Source: a virus
Direction: 5' to 3' (one strand)
Virus record (IMG/VR): IMGVR_UViG_3300023443_000674
Coordinates: 1-23,273 of that record
Length of the DNA: 23,273 nucleotides
Shown: positions 2,653 to 18,836 of the stretch, piece by piece
Layout of the letters: every line of letters starts with the position of its first letter
Position numbering within the stretch: position 1 is the first letter of the stretch
The notes under the pieces: generated by a model
Databases searched by the model: none
Told to the model about the DNA's origin: nothing
The model's input: only the letters and a program-made list of their open reading frames with translations
Program-made: the position numbers and the translations under genes

Positions 2653-3669
2653 TTAGATGAACAAGTAATCAGCAACTGTATCCAGTGTCTGATCAATATA
2701 TTCATTGGATTGAGTCATTGATACCAGTACGTCCCCCTGAGTAGATTCAGAACGTTCCAGTCTCTCTACCCAGAAATCAAACCCTGCTTGATCTGGCGAA
2801 CGACCGAACACTTCTTCATACATATGGGTGACAAATTCAGTACTGCTCACTGTTCCATTTTCGTTAGTGTCAGTGTTGCTAATAAACTCATCTGAATTAA
2901 CAAAGCCTGCAGCCATGCTTGGAAGTGTCTGGTCTCCCCACTCAATCTGATCAGCCCACCACTCAAAACCATTTTTGTCCGGAAGACGGCCTAATGCTCC
3001 CATATAGGTGCGGTAGAGCTGTGCATCCTCCGCGTCTACAACGAAACCTTGAGGACTCCAGATAGCATTGTCATAATTTGAGGTATCCGGATCTATGATA
3101 TAAGCCGTTTCCACCACAGGGGTCTCGTCAACAAGCGTATCGTCAGCAATTATGACCTCATCCACCACTTCATCCACGACAACATCTTGAACTTCCTGAT
3201 TGTCCACTCCTCCTATCAATACCACTCCCGAATCATTCCACGCGTAAGGAGCATTAATTGAAAGGTAAAACCATCCATCATTCTCAGGCATAAAATTTAT
3301 GAGACTGGCTTCATAGGGTTCACTGTAAGCATCTGATCCAGGCTGAGTTCGCATGAGATAACCGTCTGCATCGTAGAGAGAAAGGTCGGGGGACAGCCAA
3401 GACCATCCATTGGGGTTTTGTTGACCAACAATGAAGCTGTAAGTATCGCCTGCCGATAAATAAATTGGGGCTATATCTGTATCATCATCGCGACCAAAAT
3501 TATCTTTGCCACCGATTGTGAAATATCCACTCCACATATAATCAAAATCCCATCCGGGAGTATATTCTCCGTTCATAAAGATTAACTCATTATAGGATTC
3601 TTCCTCTGCTGAAAAAACTAGGAAGACTGCAGCATCTGTATCTGTCCAGCCGTTTACTCTATTGCTCAT
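2653..3669 (-). CDS. PPC-like / DUF4214-domain protein with EF-hand-like loop
   Basis: This acidic 338-residue protein has no signal peptide. Residues about 48-152 look like a bacterial pre-peptidase C-terminal (PPC) beta-sandwich, with YLSAGDTYSF, LSLYDADG and GWFYLSINA. An acidic Val/Asp/Glu linker follows (about 156-188). Two DUF4214-like units lie at about 214-264 (YRTYMGALGRLPDKNGFEWW) and 280-326 (MYEEVFGRSPDQAGFDFW). Between them, D267 to E278 fits a canonical EF-hand loop, with D1, N3, N5, G6, V8 and E12, so calcium binding is likely. DUF4214 is usual in secreted or surface proteins. Here it could be a lysogenic-conversion product or a virion appendage. The ribosome binding site AGGGG lies 8 bases upstream. 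The gene stands alone, convergent to the ejection genes, with a LexA-type box 55 bases before its ATG. Confidence 0.75.
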   Translation of the reverse strand: MSNRVNGWTDTDAAVFLVFSAEEESYNELIFMNGEYTPGWDFDYMWSGYFTIGGKDNFGRDDDTDIAPIYLSAGDTYSFIVGQQNPNGWSWLSPDLSLYDADGYLMRTQPGSDAYSEPYEASLINFMPENDGWFYLSINAPYAWNDSGVVLIGGVDNQEVQDVVVDEVVDEVIIADDTLVDETPVVETAYIIDPDTSNYDNAIWSPQGFVVDAEDAQLYRTYMGALGRLPDKNGFEWWADQIEWGDQTLPSMAAGFVNSDEFISNTDTNENGTVSSTEFVTHMYEEVFGRSPDQAGFDFWVERLERSESTQGDVLVSMTQSNEYIDQTLDTVADYLFI

Positions 3670-5995: not shown

Positions 5996-6033
5996 AAAAT
6001 GGCTTGAAAGCCGCGTATTTCCTCAATAGCATC

Positions 6034-6083
6034 CCTGGCTACGAACCAGGGGGTCGCAGATTCGAATTCTGCCGGGCGCACCA
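6034..6083 (+). other. 3' half of tRNA-Arg(ACG): attachment core
   Basis: The sequence contains anticodon stem CCTGG/CCAGG around the loop CTACGAA (anticodon ACG at 6041-6043), T arm GCAGA-TTCGAAT-TCTGC at 6056-6072, the 3' acceptor strand CGGGCGC at 6073-6079, a discriminator A and an encoded CCA at 6081-6083. The 5' acceptor strand and D arm are absent, so this is not a working tRNA gene. It is the segment that restores the host tRNA gene after integration. Identity with the host gene may begin a few bases earlier, around 6028. Confidence 0.85.
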
Positions 6084-6190: not shown

Positions 6191-6529
6191 ATGTCTAATC
6201 CTAAGTTAGCTACTTTTATTGATCGTCTTGAGGCAGTGATGCTTGACGCAGGCGTAGAGCCAGAACAGTTAAAAGCCACAATTTGTGCAATATGCGACAT
6301 ACCGTCAGTGGATGATTGGTTTAGTGGTTTCACGCAATCTCCCCCCGCTGAGAATGTTGCTGCTCTTTCTGTCTATTTCAAATCTGATTGTGTTTGGCTG
6401 ATCACTGGTAAATACTCTAGCGAACAAGTCGTATGTGACCGTCATACTGACGAGGTATTTTCTTGCACGTTGCTTAACCAAAGAATGGAAGCTAAAGAGC
6501 TGAAAGTCATACGAAATTATGAGGACTAG
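6191..6529 (+). CDS. Repressor paralogue, candidate LexA-controlled antirepressor
   Basis: A 112-residue protein. Residues about 7-80 align by eye with the phage repressor encoded at 9264-9656: RLEAVMLDAGV against RIEQLILEHGV, then the shared WF.G, and VYFKSDCVWLITGK against DHFHADPVWLLWGE. The segment that holds the recognition helix in the repressor (GLSKQALSKWF) is shortened and altered here (DIPSVDDWF), so normal DNA binding is doubtful. The ribosome binding site GAGGT lies 5 bases before the ATG. A LexA-box promoter precedes it. I infer that it could interact with the repressor and antagonise it after DNA damage. An independent regulator of integration is the alternative. Confidence 0.6.
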   Translation: MSNPKLATFIDRLEAVMLDAGVEPEQLKATICAICDIPSVDDWFSGFTQSPPAENVAALSVYFKSDCVWLITGKYSSEQVVCDRHTDEVFSCTLLNQRMEAKELKVIRNYED

Positions 6530-6562: not shown

Positions 6563-6796
6563 ATGAAAAAGAAGGCCACTCGAAAAGAAACTGCGGAATG
6601 GATGGCTAATCATGAAATGCTCACTTTGACTGAAATAGCATTGATATTGGGCGGCTTTAATCCGGCTGACATAGAAGTGGATAAAGACGGAAATCCAAAT
6701 CTATCCTCAGAAAAAAGTAAAATAAAATATAAAGAAGCTAGAGAGGAGGCTCTAGCGGCGGTCAACTCAGGAGAGTTAGGTTTCACTAATCGGTAG
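6563..6796 (+). CDS. Hypothetical 77-aa protein, possible small regulator
   Basis: AGGAG precedes the ATG by 9 bases. Residues 8-40 (ETAEWMANHEMLTLTEIALILGGFNPADIEVDKDGNP) resemble the short helical segment 'LTL.EAA.LL.G.DP' common in uncharacterised phage and prophage proteins, and the remainder is a charged helix. I cannot assign a function. It lies 33 bases after the repressor paralogue, probably on the same SOS-regulated transcript, and its 3' end overlaps the convergent integrase gene by 11 bases. Excisionase is possible from position but has no motif support. Confidence 0.6.
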   Translation: MKKKATRKETAEWMANHEMLTLTEIALILGGFNPADIEVDKDGNPNLSSEKSKIKYKEAREEALAAVNSGELGFTNR

Positions 6797-7838
6797 CTCC
6801 TATCTTCCGTAGCTTCCGGTTATAAACCTTGTGCATAAGAGGGGACTTATGACCGGCAAACTGTTCACCCTTCATATCTGAATAGCCCTTGGCCTTGAGA
6901 TCGTGGAAGGTGAAATGCTCACCACCTTGAGCCTCAACCTTGTCCATCAATCTACGCCATGCACTTTTAAAGCCAGACTCGTTGATAGGCTGTCCACGTT
7001 TGTTGTGGATTAGGTAGGCACCAGCTATCGGTGCAGGGGCACTACTATGGAGCGCTCTCGCAAAGCTGACAGCGCCCTCCAGTCGTTTCGTCCAGGTTGT
7101 AATTTCCCCCTCTGAGCCCTTATTCCTTGTGAGCGATATACCCTCCCTTCCAATATGTTTGTGGGTAAGACCCGCAATTTCTTTGCGTCTAGCCCGACAG
7201 AGGACAGCCAACTCCATGAAGGCAGCGATGTAAGGCGACCCTCCTTCCATTGCATAGCGGATAGCAACTGTATATTCATCGTCCGTAACATAACGTGTCC
7301 TCGGTTCCTCTTTGTTCAGCTTGACCTTCTCGCAAGGGTTATCCCTTACAGCGTCATAACGCTCTCTAGCCCAGTTGAAGGCAGATTTTAAATACTGGAT
7401 ATGGCGATTAGCGGCTACAGGTGCATGATCACCATTCGCTTTTCTGTAGTTGTCCAAGTATCCACGTATGGTTGTACGCTTGATCTTGGCATAGGGCATA
7501 TCACCAAACTTCCTACGGCGTACTACAGGGTAGGATAGGAGTTTGAGGCGGTATGCCTGATAATCTATCTGGGTTCTTGGGACCAATCCCTGGAACTGGG
7601 TGGAGTCGTGGTATACGCTCAGAAGCCATGAGAGCGTGTCTGTGGCTTGATCAGTGACCCGTAGGTAGTTCTCCCAGATTTGGGCATCTGTGGCTGGAGC
7701 CTTGCACAGTACTATCTCTTTAGCGCGTAGATAGCGGCCATCCACTTTGCCCAGATATTCCTTCCAGACAATGCGACCTTTTGACTCGTAAACATTTTTG
7801 GGCCACTTATTTTTACTGTGGGATCTCTTAGCGCCCAT
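6786..7838 (-). CDS. int: Tyrosine recombinase integrase
   Basis: A 350-residue site-specific recombinase that would join attP to the host tRNA-Arg gene. Residues 1-60 form the basic N-terminal part (likely arm-binding), about 62-165 the core-binding domain, and about 180-345 the catalytic domain. Catalytic residues visible are R217 in CRARRKEI, K240 in RNKGSEG, H312 in FHDLKAKG, H330 in FAGHKS and nucleophile Y339 in VYNRK. The second active-site arginine of the HxxR motif is replaced by lysine (K315), a variant I associate with phage integrases carrying HDLKAKG. GGGA lies 8 bases before the ATG, and the start overlaps the upstream DUF4224 gene by 11 bases. Confidence 0.93.
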   Translation of the reverse strand: MGAKRSHSKNKWPKNVYESKGRIVWKEYLGKVDGRYLRAKEIVLCKAPATDAQIWENYLRVTDQATDTLSWLLSVYHDSTQFQGLVPRTQIDYQAYRLKLLSYPVVRRRKFGDMPYAKIKRTTIRGYLDNYRKANGDHAPVAANRHIQYLKSAFNWARERYDAVRDNPCEKVKLNKEEPRTRYVTDDEYTVAIRYAMEGGSPYIAAFMELAVLCRARRKEIAGLTHKHIGREGISLTRNKGSEGEITTWTKRLEGAVSFARALHSSAPAPIAGAYLIHNKRGQPINESGFKSAWRRLMDKVEAQGGEHFTFHDLKAKGYSDMKGEQFAGHKSPLMHKVYNRKLRKIGATD

Positions 7839-8016
7839 GATCTAGATCCCAGTCGTTTTCTTCATTCAGGCTAGCATCTATCTGGGTAAGAGTAGTCAGG
7901 GGTTGGCCGCCTTTGCCTTTGCGCCACCTGATACCGCTATCCTCCAACCAAGCAATTATCCGGGCTTCTTGGTCAAAGCCGGTATATTCCTTCAGCGCTT
8001 GTAGGTTGTAGAGCAT
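7828..8016 (-). CDS. DUF4224 family protein, possible recombination directionality factor
   Basis: A 62-residue protein. NLQALKEYTGFDQEARIIAWLEDSGIRW followed by a basic GKGGQP matches the DUF4224 pattern: a short helix-turn-helix-like protein that usually lies directly upstream of phage integrases. I chose ATG 8016, preceded by a GGA, because the family begins just before this LxxLxxxTG motif. A longer form would need a TTG at 8055. It overlaps the integrase start by 11 bases, so both are translated from one leftward mRNA. An excisionase-like or integrase-regulating role is inferred from position. Confidence 0.7.
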   Translation of the reverse strand: MLYNLQALKEYTGFDQEARIIAWLEDSGIRWRKGKGGQPLTTLTQIDASLNEENDWDLDHGR

Positions 8017-8046
8017 GGGTCCAGTAAACCAAAGTGGACTCAGGTA

Positions 8047-8062
8047 GTCAAACAAATTTGAC
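8047..8062. promoter_or_regulatory. Palindrome upstream of the integrase operon
   Basis: GTCAAA and TTTGAC are perfect 6-base arms around CAAA, about 31 bases upstream of the DUF4224 ATG. On the minus strand, TATAGT at 8066-8061 resembles a -10 element and overlaps one arm. No good -35 is visible. An operator for the integrase operon is plausible. Confidence 0.35.
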
Positions 8063-8092
8063 TATAAATAATAAATATTTTTCTCCAGGCAT

Positions 8093-8114
8093 AAAAAAGC
8101 CCTCCGAAGAGGGC
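8093..8114 (-). terminator. Intrinsic terminator after the repressor-protease operon
   Basis: On the minus strand, GCCCTC (8114-8109) pairs with GAGGGC (8104-8099) around a TTCG tetraloop, followed by TTTTTTAT. This is a compact, strong intrinsic terminator 20 bases beyond the stop of the last exported-protein gene. It separates the operon from the integrase unit. Confidence 0.85.
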
Positions 8115-8133: not shown

Positions 8134-8640
8134 CTATTCAGCTGTGGTGCTGTTCCCATCACTACGATAAATGCCCAGTTTGTTAATCATGAATTGCCCA
8201 GCATTCAATCCTGTAATTCCATAGATTTTCGTGCCAGTGCTTTCTTCAGTCTCATATGCGTCATACATATAAAGCCTATATTTTTTCCCGACGATGAGTC
8301 GAGGAACCCCTTCATATTTTTTATCGACTAGATTGCCCCACTGACGCACGAATATACGGTCACCTGTTAACACAGGCTGGATGTTGCCGTTAGGCTCTAT
8401 GTTATGGCCACGCTGTACATTATCGATTGTGGCGGAGTGGAGCATGTAATTTTCAGTGAATTCACCATTTGCGCCAATGTAGTGAATCTTATGGCCGTCT
8501 AACGAATAGTCCACGGTGACATCAGCTATTATTTGCGCCTTCCGATCAACTTTGGCCATTGTCGTCATAATCATGTGATTTGGAATGCTCTCAGCCGCGA
8601 TTGGTGAACTGATAGCTAGTAGTAAGATGAGATATTTCAT
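8134..8640 (-). CDS. Exported protein downstream of metzincin protease
   Basis: A 168-residue protein. The N-terminus MKYLILLLAISSPIAAES is a signal peptide with probable cleavage after IAA. The mature part appears beta-rich (QIIADVTVDYSLDGHKIHYIGANGE, LIVGKKYRLYMYDAY) with no cysteine pair or enzymatic motif, and I do not recognise the family. I chose ATG 8640 because AGGAG lies about 7 bases upstream and the signal peptide begins there. An upstream in-frame ATG would bury it. The ribosome binding site overlaps the stop region of the protease gene, so the two are coupled. It may assist, inhibit or be a substrate of the protease (inference). Confidence 0.7.
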   Translation of the reverse strand: MKYLILLLAISSPIAAESIPNHMIMTTMAKVDRKAQIIADVTVDYSLDGHKIHYIGANGEFTENYMLHSATIDNVQRGHNIEPNGNIQPVLTGDRIFVRQWGNLVDKKYEGVPRLIVGKKYRLYMYDAYETEESTGTKIYGITGLNAGQFMINKLGIYRSDGNSTTAE

Positions 8641-8648
8641 AATTTCTC

Positions 8649-9227
8649 CTAGTAGGCTCGGTCTATTACGTCTTTTGCTTGTTCGGTAATCCCGCAATGA
8701 TGTGCTGGAGTAATACCAGGGCATCCAGATGCGTGCATGAGTTCTGCTTGTGAGATATCGACATCCTCATCGTCTCGGTCATCTACATATTCGTGGTCGT
8801 TGTGATCTAATCCGTAACAGTGACCTAATTCATGTAAAACCAACATGTACTTGAAGGCAGCAGATTTGTTGTTCGCATTCGTACCTATATTTATGGAGCA
8901 CTCAATGTCATTACTTCGATTGACTGAGGCGCAGGCAAAGCCGGGTATACAGGCACTCGGCATTTGGTCATCATCTTGGAAAATCCTAACGCGCTCAAAG
9001 CCTGCATCAATCATGACAGGGTTGATATCTGCTTCTTCGGCCCAGTCATTGACGGCTGATATGACAACATTCGTCCAGTAGCCGGGTAGTGTTTCCTCGC
9101 TGTTTGTCGTGATGGCTACACCTAGTGACGAAGTGGTAGCTCTGCCCGCCGAGAGATTCCAGTGCTGCACTGCGAAAGCAGGGGTAGAAATGGGGATTAG
9201 TAGGCTGGCAAGTATAAGTATTTTCAT
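8649..9227 (-). CDS. Secreted metzincin (matrixin-like) zinc metalloprotease
   Basis: A 192-residue protein. MKILILASLLIPISTPAFA is a signal peptide with cleavage predicted after A19. HELGHCYGLDH at residues 132-142 is the complete metzincin zinc motif HExxHxxGxxH, with E133 as general base. M164 in ELMHASG is a good Met-turn. Six cysteines (93, 99, 110, 137, 169, 178) suggest disulfides outside the cytoplasm. The small size fits a catalytic domain without a clear long propeptide. AGAGGAAA precedes the ATG. It starts 36 bases after the repressor stop with no terminator visible, so it should be expressed in the lysogen. The substrate is unknown. Confidence 0.85.
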   Translation of the reverse strand: MKILILASLLIPISTPAFAVQHWNLSAGRATTSSLGVAITTNSEETLPGYWTNVVISAVNDWAEEADINPVMIDAGFERVRIFQDDDQMPSACIPGFACASVNRSNDIECSINIGTNANNKSAAFKYMLVLHELGHCYGLDHNDHEYVDDRDDEDVDISQAELMHASGCPGITPAHHCGITEQAKDVIDRAY

Positions 9228-9263
9228 TTTTATTTCCTCTTAGGTGATGGTGAATTCTATTAA

Positions 9264-9656
9264 TTATGCCAGTTTGAGATCGGGCGGCATATATCCATAG
9301 AAGTGGGCCGTTTGAATACTCCCTACATTAACTGGAACTCCCTGATCCAGATGCTCTCCTATGGCTTGTTTCCGCTGCTCATCATACTGAGTAGATGTTT
9401 CCCCCCATAGAAGCCAAACCGGATCAGCATGGAAATGGTCCGTTATAGCTTTAATGTGGTCAACAGTAGGAGTAGCCGTATCGCCATTAAACCATTTACT
9501 CAAGGCTTGCTTGCTAAGGCCAGTAATTTCCGTAATTTTGCTTCTTACCTTATCGGGTGGTACTCCGTGTTCAAGTATTAGCTGTTCAATCCGCTGCGTG
9601 ATTGGCCCGGGAATGGTAGTTGAATCAGTCATTTTTAATACCGCTTTGTTAGTCAC
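9264..9656 (-). CDS. Short phage repressor (CI-like, no cleavage domain)
   Basis: A helix-turn-helix protein with RIEQLILEHGV and ITGLSKQALSKWFNGDTATPTVDHIKAITDHFHADPVWLLWG. The helix-turn-helix is ITEITGLSKQALSKWFNG. The remaining tail is about 45 residues, so there is no room for the S24/LexA-type self-cleavage domain of lambda CI. It lies divergent to a Cro-like gene, the normal position of the lysogeny repressor. The start is either GTG 9656, with AAGGA about 10 bases upstream (130 residues), or ATG 9632 (122 residues) with a weaker site. It is the first gene of the unit encoding the metzincin and the exported protein. A paralogue lies at 6191-6529. Confidence 0.8.
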   Translation of the reverse strand: MTNKAVLKMTDSTTIPGPITQRIEQLILEHGVPPDKVRSKITEITGLSKQALSKWFNGDTATPTVDHIKAITDHFHADPVWLLWGETSTQYDEQRKQAIGEHLDQGVPVNVGSIQTAHFYGYMPPDLKLA

Positions 9657-9689: not shown

Positions 9690-9719
9690 GTTGCCCTAGC
9701 GGGTCAACTTTGGTAGACT
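9690..9719 (+). promoter_or_regulatory. Rightward early promoter (PR-like) with operator
   Basis: TTGCCC at 9691-9696 and TAGACT at 9714-9719 are 17 bases apart and lie 26 bases before the Cro-like start. An imperfect palindrome GTTGcCC-N5-GGgtCAAC at 9690-9708 overlaps the -35. On the opposite strand TTGACC (9707-9702) could be the -35 of a weak repressor promoter with a poor -10. This is the expected position for repressor and Cro operators. Confidence 0.5.
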
Positions 9720-9744
9720 GGCTCGAAATTGAATGGAGTCATCA

Positions 9745-9921
9745 ATGACTATTAAGCAACTTATTCGATATTACGGGGACAATAGGACGGCGGCTTCTGC
9801 AATTGGGGTTACTAAGCAGTCTCTTTCCAAATGGAAGAAAACCGGTATCCCAATTTTGCGCCAGCACTATATCCAGTCCCTTACTAATGGGGATCTGAAG
9901 GCTGTTAAGAAATCCCCATGA
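9745..9921 (+). CDS. cro: Cro/YdaS-like antirepressor of the lysogeny switch
   Basis: A 58-residue protein. RTAASAIGVTKQSLSKWKKTGIPILRQHYIQSLTNGDL has the Cro/YdaS pattern: helix-turn-helix AASAIGVTKQSLSKWK followed by IP.LR...I..LT.G.L. I chose ATG 9745 because GGAG lies 6 bases upstream. The ATG at 9733 overlaps that site. It is divergent from the repressor and first in the rightward early operon, as in lambda. It would repress the repressor promoter and favour lytic growth. Confidence 0.8.
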   Translation: MTIKQLIRYYGDNRTAASAIGVTKQSLSKWKKTGIPILRQHYIQSLTNGDLKAVKKSP

Positions 9922-17600: not shown

Positions 17601-18249
17601 CATTCTTGATGAAGCGCTTGCTACTGTGGTCTCTGATACGGTGTCGGTTGCTGGTGATGTTGTGTTGACGTTTAAGGCCCCTGATCAGGCTATGACGTTT
17701 AGATTCACTAATCCTCCTGCAGTGAGTGGAGAGACCTCCATCCTTACCTCTCTCACTCAGATTGATGAGAGTTATAAGATTATTGAGTCCTCCGATAAGG
17801 GCGGTAGCATCTTTAACGATGTAACTGCTAGACCGTTCTCGCCTGTTCTCGCCCAGAATGTTCTCTCGGATGTCAGTGATGGAGGAACCGATATCTTCTA
17901 CGGGCCCTTTACATCCCGAGAGAAAGGACGGCTATCTGATGAGGCCAATGGCACTGTGACGATTACCAGTGTGCGAGACAGCGGCCAGACCATTCAAGGC
18001 TCCTTTGTTGCCATGATTGCATCGGCTGGAACAAATCAATATGAGGCCCTCATTACCATTAATGGAGAGCCTCAAGAGGATAGTGTGGGGACGAATGTCT
18101 GGATTGGTAATAACGATGTCCGCACAATTACGACCCAAGCGATCACGCGAGATGTGACCGACACTGACGAGATCAAGCTTCAGGTAAGACCGATTGGTCA
18201 GTCCAACAACTTATCAGTGCTTAGATGCGCTGTCTCCCATACGGAGTAG
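14686..18249 (+). CDS. Large tail-fibre/appendage protein, 1187 aa
   Basis: AGGA lies 7 bases before the ATG. Two tandem beta-rich domains (about 33-180 and 243-388) share the pattern DDV.IGT..VAF.IDL and GAETI.G. About 400-660 looks like a beta-helix or sandwich region. About 663-870 has propeller-like repeats: NVWGLGFDGTNLLAT, GLTTDGTNIIIVDS and SYDGINLILSDF. The C-terminal 300 residues are beta-rich, ending in a small domain with ITINGEPQEDSVGTNVWIGNND. The architecture fits a tail fibre, tailspike or other host-contact appendage, though no polysaccharide-lyase signature is visible. It is not an enzyme that I can name. Confidence 0.75.
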   Translation: MATIDQIADGESGLSVREKLNQVHDQIVEISAGYIQVQADDVVIGTAAVAFDIDLLSVTAAPPSDAIKALTVFNLPGSVADITLLPFGAETIDGLTSLVITPGMVATITPTSTEWITHPGGIVDSVNGSTNITISGPAEDPIVSLNTEITGTRVNGVMLSSTGSAGDFLQADGGYSLINTSVTGGNNITNSGTAAAAVLDLDSIITGMTVNGVVLNSAGDNFEYLAEDGQYTVPTGNIVEVSTAYTQVVRDDVIIGTGGVAFTIDLILLSTAVKAITIRNDATATITLDGNGAETIEGNATFALAPGTSIILVPTSGTDWVEVGEAGIQSVQAGTNISVDNTDSANPEVSVIANMQNQAVNNVTLTDAGSGGVNYLDDNGDYSIPPQTGAQKALLTLQAFTEQDIIDELGSGPIWNLSGYNLQIMANITLSTNNNFLIDTAGATVEGVDRNLSSITGDSGQALFNFTADSASDTDLQFRLSNVTLTQSGIGGLLRQDGTRFIVEFDNCGLTGNTTGGNITLFNGQFIGFSDGVLQGGSSITQGDGTSGSPGVEFIFFRKNFLGITDLFANDQRFIELLPNSVTKRISAETFSIQINPDFGFTAQRTGGIGLYIHKGAQVDILNYMGGGFNPLHASSRQIAVEDPSSVKFGLMGGNTFEGAGELYQFESSTPDSTIALDNVWGLGFDGTNLLATSDDNSGSSTLVQYTGLTSTPLSTIASPDNRPTDVDWLRGNMISLGKETTQGIVYLHDGFSTTIDDQVSLSAVGIAFGRGLTTDGTNIIIVDSIAREVHVFGADFFTATTPVAIKIFTVPGTGTLNGCSYDGINLILSDFGNNTILVMKGISPIIQYEFASQATTLLGVTVLPTGYAESDEVAETIDIFDESLTFDQSSPNWEIMGNVGDQEQIKVDPINDTLWTTSNSGTVDDTGAVLTLTNGAAAVGTADFPLECVPGHTYRVTNGYTPGTSATAGFAILDEALATVVSDTVSVAGDVVLTFKAPDQAMTFRFTNPPAVSGETSILTSLTQIDESYKIIESSDKGGSIFNDVTARPFSPVLAQNVLSDVSDGGTDIFYGPFTSREKGRLSDEANGTVTITSVRDSGQTIQGSFVAMIASAGTNQYEALITINGEPQEDSVGTNVWIGNNDVRTITTQAITRDVTDTDEIKLQVRPIGQSNNLSVLRCAVSHTE

Positions 18250-18254
18250 AGACT

Positions 18255-18836
18255 ATGAATAAATATGTAATAGGTTTGATGATGATGCTTACAGCGTCAT
18301 TTGGATTTGCCGATTCTAGTGCGAATGGGAAGATGGAGGTGAGTGATTACTATATCCATGATGGCATGTATGTGACTGACACTACGGGCCTTTATGTGGT
18401 GGATTCCCGCGTAAAAGGAATAGCCCCTGGATGGCCACTTTCTGTTATTGAATATGAACTTGCTGACGACTATATAGGTTTAATCCCTATGACAGCTCAG
18501 ATGGGCAATGGAGCCAATTATATTGAGACTGGCGAGTGGATCTCCTGGAGTTATACGGAGGGATATTATAAAGACCCGGACTGTACAGATGATTATGTAG
18601 CCCCTCAGTTTTATGAAGATGATGTGGTGTTTATACGGCGAGAAGGCGCTGAGCGTACTTATTCTTTCTATTTGATAGATCGTACGGCAGATATGATTAG
18701 TACGGATGTCTATTACATTAAGCTCTCCAAGAGCTGTAAAGGACCCCTGCTTGCTGATGTTCTGATTAATTTTTATTACGTCACGGCTATTTTGGATGAG
18801 ATTCCCGATTTGAAGTTTACAATTTCGGCGCACTAA
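18255..18836 (+). CDS. Exported protein in the late operon
   Basis: A 193-residue protein. The ATG at 18255 has GGAG 8 bases upstream and begins a signal peptide (MNKYVIGLMMMLTASFGFA), with cleavage expected before DSS. An earlier in-frame ATG at 18225 would lie inside the fibre gene. The mature protein is aromatic-rich and beta-rich, with two cysteines (in DPDCTDDY and SKSCKGP) that could form a disulfide. No lipobox is present. A secreted protein among virion genes is unusual. It may be a host-envelope or exclusion factor, but I cannot assign a function. It overlaps the next gene as TAATG. Confidence 0.7.
   Translation: MNKYVIGLMMMLTASFGFADSSANGKMEVSDYYIHDGMYVTDTTGLYVVDSRVKGIAPGWPLSVIEYELADDYIGLIPMTAQMGNGANYIETGEWISWSYTEGYYKDPDCTDDYVAPQFYEDDVVFIRREGAERTYSFYLIDRTADMISTDVYYIKLSKSCKGPLLADVLINFYYVTAILDEIPDLKFTISAH

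Follow-up and report, generated by a model that had tools for sequence, protein, structure and literature searches.

The window analysed here is an IMG/VR virus record of 23,273 bases, taken over its whole length, and it represents a temperate phage whose layout is roughly P22/APSE-like (several gene names were assigned by eye), with ejection-type genes, recombination genes, attP, int, xis, repressor/cro, replication genes, a NinG-like gene, a fibre-like gene and a terminase. On its minus strand a repressor gene (9264-9656) is followed by the gene for a secreted protease of the metzincin type (8649-9227), by that of a second exported protein, referred to below as the partner (8134-8640), and by an intrinsic terminator (8114-8099), with intergenic gaps of 36 and 8 bases. 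The first-pass annotation of this DNA had described a repressor, a signal-peptide metzincin and an exported partner as co-directional and separated by these gaps, and its coordinates, strand and motif all proved correct.

The repressor operon and its phage

The operon begins with a cI-like repressor of 130 aa that starts with GTG and contains an HTH_3 domain (9264-9656, minus strand; Pfam HTH_3, 1.5e-5; PHROG repressors down to 5e-10); no peptidase (S24) domain was detected in it. Divergent from the repressor lies a Cro protein of the P22_Cro family (9733-9921, plus strand; Pfam P22_Cro, 5.9e-15), and between the two genes we located the palindrome GTTGCCCTAGCGGGTCAAC (9690-9708), an exact match to GTTGNCCN5GGNCAAC. 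This pattern, which was picked after the palindrome had been seen, occurs only once in the window at up to two mismatches, with a mean of 0.67 occurrences expected by chance, and the palindrome is a possible operator.

Clear Shine-Dalgarno-like sequences were found for both the protease and the partner, the latter starting at the ATG at 8640 (the open reading frame listed with a start at 8724 extends it upstream). When codon statistics were trained on the remaining genes of the window, the annotated frame scored 0.07 for the protease and 0.18 for the partner, whereas none of the five alternative frames exceeded -0.30, indicating that both are real genes. The terminator that ends the operon consists of a UUCG hairpin and a run of six T (GCCCTC-TTCG-GAGGGC-TTTTTT; hairpin at 8099-8114, minus strand; fold -12.2 kcal/mol, z -2.45). 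A scan for sigma-70-like promoters found none on the minus strand within the operon; this negative is weak because the scan also missed the divergent repressor/cro promoters.

With two genes co-directional with the repressor, close behind it and closed off by a terminator, the locus forms a genuine and well-formed cargo operon. The position behind cI is an established site of morons; in characterised prophages, accessory genes at this site are transcribed during lysogeny, at least one of them, bstA of phage BTP1, from the cI promoter (PMC7067206). Such transcription of accessory genes from a cI promoter leads us to expect that the protease and the partner are likewise made in lysogens, which on this analogy is likely. 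The gene order also agrees with the rexAB-like position that had been proposed for the pair. Both rexAB of lambda and bstA of BTP1 resemble the present locus in that cargo genes are placed for transcription with the repressor (shown for bstA, PMC7067206), but their proteins differ from those of the window and neither system is an exported protease pair. No match to a defence-system family was found.

An excisionase-like gene (DUF4224) occupies the next transcription unit (7828-8055, minus strand; PF13986, 4.3e-5; phrog_1266, 8e-7), and at its start lies a perfect 8-base inverted repeat with a 4-base spacer (TAGTCAAA-4-TTTGACTA, 8045-8064), a possible site for Xis or a regulator. A tyrosine integrase is encoded at 6786-7838 (minus strand; PF00589, 9e-8; phrog_1, 9e-41; 32% identity to the integrase of phage ZF40). 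The attP-like core (6027-6083, plus strand), read directly from the sequence, is the 3' half of a tRNA-Arg(ACG) from the anticodon arm to the CCA end; ARAGORN reported no complete tRNA, and an exact 50-base match to the core is absent from the genome contigs searched, so that either the tRNA of the host has a different sequence or those contigs do not include the host. Three further genes were observed: adjoining attP, a second protein of the phage repressor's family with a degenerate-looking HTH (6191-6529, plus strand; phrog_2328, 0.001); on the strand opposite to the late genes, with the ejection-type genes on one side and the recombination genes on the other, a 338-aa DUF4214 protein (2653-3669, minus strand; 2e-23); and, behind the fibre-like gene of the late region, a 203-aa signal-peptide protein with no clear family match (18225-18836, plus strand). 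The large terminase shares about 40% identity with the terminases of Gram-negative phages and up to 57% with those of environmental viral contigs, and from these identities and the P22_Cro family membership we infer that the host is probably Gram-negative and probably gammaproteobacterial.

A minimal metzincin and an exported partner

The protease (8649-9227, minus strand) is a secreted minimal metzincin of 192 aa with a classic Sec signal peptide (residues 1-19; ...ISTPAFA|VQHW, read by eye), six Cys and no propeptide. It carries the zinc-binding and catalytic motif HELGHCYGLDH at residues 132-142 (8802-8834, minus strand), which conforms to the metzincin signature HExxHxxGxxH, and behind the third zinc His the Met-turn ELMHAS, recognised from sequence, so that the motifs noted in the first-pass annotation are indeed present. 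The Met of this turn (Met 164) lies 22 residues past the third zinc His, compared with 8-11 residues in the Mtz metzincins of Firmicutes. HExxH starts at residue 113 of the 173 residues of the mature protein, leaving no room for a propeptide, which in turn makes an external regulator plausible, and the six Cys fit an oxidising compartment. The Pfam matches of the protease are weak (Reprolysin_3, 0.0014; M10, 0.011; astacin, 0.038), and the scores for the matrixins (M10), the astacins (M12A) and the reprolysins (M12B) all lie under the gathering cut-offs; a PDB search returned tolloid/BMP1 astacins, not significantly. Judged by its motifs and profile scores, the protein is a metzincin of no assignable subfamily. 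Nor was it retained as an Mtz: it scores 19 bits against the Mtz profile and ranks about 97th of 148 phage metzincins by HMM and 85th of 133 by alignment z, and by these measures Mtz is no nearer to it than to phage metzincins in general.

The partner (8134-8640, minus strand) has 168 aa, a classic Sec signal peptide of the SPI type (about residues 1-16; ...SSPIAA|ESIP, read by eye), no lipobox and no Cys. In the classical TIMP mechanism, the N-terminal Cys (Cys1) chelates the zinc of the protease; in a protein devoid of Cys this mode of inhibition is excluded, and the candidate of a classical TIMP was rejected on this ground and because the partner has no match to Pfam TIMP (PF00965) at E 10. 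Structure prediction gave no view of a TIMP-like (OB) fold, since the AlphaFold models of the partner (pLDDT 39 with no alignment rows and 37 with three rows) are too poor for use; Foldseek with the first of these poor models returned no match.

The partner was also compared with Tim, the TIMP-like partner of Mtz. Its gene lies 8 bases downstream of that of a secreted metzincin, as expected of a Tim, and its product is exported with an SPI signal peptide, one of the two export modes of Tims, which have a lipobox in Listeria and SPI signal peptides in other Firmicutes (PMC8235301). Residues 49-175 of the Tim profile align collinearly with residues 30-158 of the partner, nearly the whole mature protein, at 4.3 bits, and the Tim pattern (I.V, GY/EG, G.(K)Y.L, G...G.) is present in the same order. 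Among about 2200 background proteins the partner ranks third against the Tim profile, and the two above it are themselves metzincin partners (from the viral contigs L209 and L096). When signal peptides were trimmed, it ranked 8th, 3rd or 1st of 2194 depending on the members included in the profile, and 134, 61 or 22 of 5000 shuffles scored as well against the trimmed profiles; hhalign gave a p of 0.024. Global alignments with the Tims of L302, L303 and L304 yielded z values of 4.1-4.7, unmatched by any of 1000 shuffles, and in the summed global alignment z the partner came first of 1178 proteins (18.9), ahead of an unrelated HNH protein (17.5). Local searches of the partner reached no significance, whether with single Tims (phmmer) or with a subset profile, the best E being 3.4 among 3841 proteins, and the homology to Tim is for this reason suggestive only. 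On these comparisons we give about even chances to the partner being a divergent member of the Tim (TIMP-like) family.

The mtz-tim precedent and other phage metzincins

The combination seen here has a published precedent in Listeria, where a cI-cro pair of phage origin adjoins mtz, encoding a secreted metzincin, and tim, encoding a TIMP-like lipoprotein (Boichis et al. 2021, PMC8235301). Mtz cleaves Tim, and the two together sensitise cells to lysis and wall-active drugs; the genes follow Cro and are induced on deletion of the CI-like repressor; and other Firmicutes carry comparable pairs close to integrases and phage genes (PMC8235301). We recovered the published Listeria locus (L305) and seven similar pairs (L294, L298, L301, L302, L304, L209 and L096), with members beyond Listeria in Metabacillus, Cytobacillus, Priestia, Brevibacillus, Bacillus badius and the viral contigs L209 and L096; the metzincin always comes first and the partner second, with gaps of 3 to 32 bases. 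Two further Listeria loci near mogR (L297 and L300) encode a Tim-like exported protein unpaired with a metzincin, so that proteins of this type may also function independently. Three of the Listeria records (L299, L300 and L305) are PLSDB 'plasmid' entries that contain genes of the chromosome and seem to be chromosomes, complete or in part.

The present locus shares with mtz-tim a phage-derived cI-cro switch and a small secreted metzincin with an exported partner immediately behind it. It differs in that the pair lies behind the repressor, whereas mtz-tim lies behind Cro; this position, and the expression in lysogens expected from it, would be the opposite of the Listeria wiring. The protease differs from Mtz in its six Cys and in a longer acidic loop before the Met-turn. 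Listeria Tim has an N-terminal stretch that Mtz cleaves, whereas the partner is neither a lipoprotein nor N-terminally extended, and the step by which Tim is released in Listeria has no counterpart here. Finally, the window phage looks to be of Gram-negative type, whereas mtz-tim is known from Gram-positives. The suggestion that the pair forms a new module holds for its arrangement behind the repressor and not for its kind, which has been published as mtz-tim (PMC8235301). What looks new is a variant of the metzincin-partner module that sits on the repressor arm, in a phage of Gram-negative type.

Metzincins are paired with proteins in other settings too, as in vertebrate MMP-TIMP and in the alkaline protease of Pseudomonas and its inhibitor. 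Vertebrate TIMP has Cys1 chelation and the TIMP Pfam domain, neither of which is found in the partner; the Pseudomonas inhibitor was compared with it through the Pfam scan only.

Searches of phages, plasmids and viral contigs returned no direct homologue of the protease or the partner, nor was one of the protease found in genome contigs, and with neither gene traced elsewhere these searches gave no case of conserved linkage of these exact two. Motif scans of viral contigs yielded about 200 metzincin open reading frames, among them no orthologue of the window protease. Most phage metzincins have no exported neighbour, and a general pairing trend was rejected, an exported downstream neighbour being present for 11 of 77 phage metzincins and 10 of 80 other exported open reading frames (Fisher p 0.46), which makes adjacency alone weak evidence. 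Pairing of a metzincin with a partner is a trait of certain lineages, including some Bacteroidota-like phages. Six contigs that by eye are of Bacteroidota-like phages (L223, L264, L280, L175, L262 and L126) encode a small metzincin and then, at a spacing of -4 to 19 bases, a small protein (88-121 aa) that is exported or is a lipoprotein. In L223, L264 and L280 these partners seem to form a single family, and the contigs represent a second lineage of metzincin-partner pairs in phages.

Function of the pair and significance

We favour, with middling confidence, the reading that the locus is a cargo (moron) operon of the lysogeny arm whose exported protease and cognate partner act on the envelope. 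Repressor, protease and partner would be transcribed as one unit that begins at the repressor promoter and stops at the terminator (8114-8099), and the minimal metzincin, made without a propeptide, would pass via Sec to the periplasm or beyond. The soluble partner would be exported with it and would most likely be its cognate binding protein, either a regulator or a processed substrate, and possibly a divergent Tim. By analogy with Listeria Mtz-Tim, we conjecture that the pair acts on the envelopes of the lysogen and of neighbouring cells and alters the response to phage or wall-active stress; lysogenic conversion or exclusion by the pair is plausible.

It is possible, if rather doubtful, that a stand-alone secreted protease and an unrelated exported neighbour merely share the repressor transcript and do not act on each other, as the scarcity of exported neighbours behind phage metzincins in general and the non-significant local match of the partner to Tim would allow. 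The eight-base gap, the export of both products, the same gene order as in mtz-tim and the collinear Tim-like alignment count against unrelated neighbours. For Listeria prophages, where mtz-tim is located behind holin-lysin, a lysis-helping function has been proposed (PMC8235301), and the sensitisation to lysis by Mtz-Tim would suit a pair expressed on induction in the window phage as well; the repressor-arm position of our genes, opposite to Cro and the late genes, makes this very unlikely.

A more specific form of the favoured reading, which we consider improbable as it stands, is a repressor-driven protease-inhibitor pair serving to keep out superinfecting phages or to maintain the prophage. 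Exported in a Gram-negative lysogen, the protease would remodel the periplasm or outer membrane by trimming a protein there, for example a phage receptor, and the Tim-like partner would restrain it and shield the host, resulting in superinfection exclusion and, if the partner decays faster, in prophage maintenance at the level of the envelope. The rexAB/bstA position speaks for such a pair, an inhibitor is to be expected for a protease without a propeptide, and a metzincin with its own inhibitor has precedent in bacteria, for example in the alkaline protease of Pseudomonas (PMC8235301). The absence of an N-terminal Cys from the partner, however, excludes classical TIMP zinc chelation, and defence-family matches are lacking.

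In the literature searched, Mtz-Tim is the only phage-linked pair of a metzincin and a TIMP-like protein described, and it is known from Gram-positives, where it lies on the lytic arm. The locus raises the question of what an exported metzincin expressed in a lysogen would cut, and whether its partner would restrain it. Finding a counterpart on the repressor arm, in a phage of Gram-negative type, would point to protease-partner pairs as a more widespread means by which phages change the host envelope, and dormant phages may install such a pair there.
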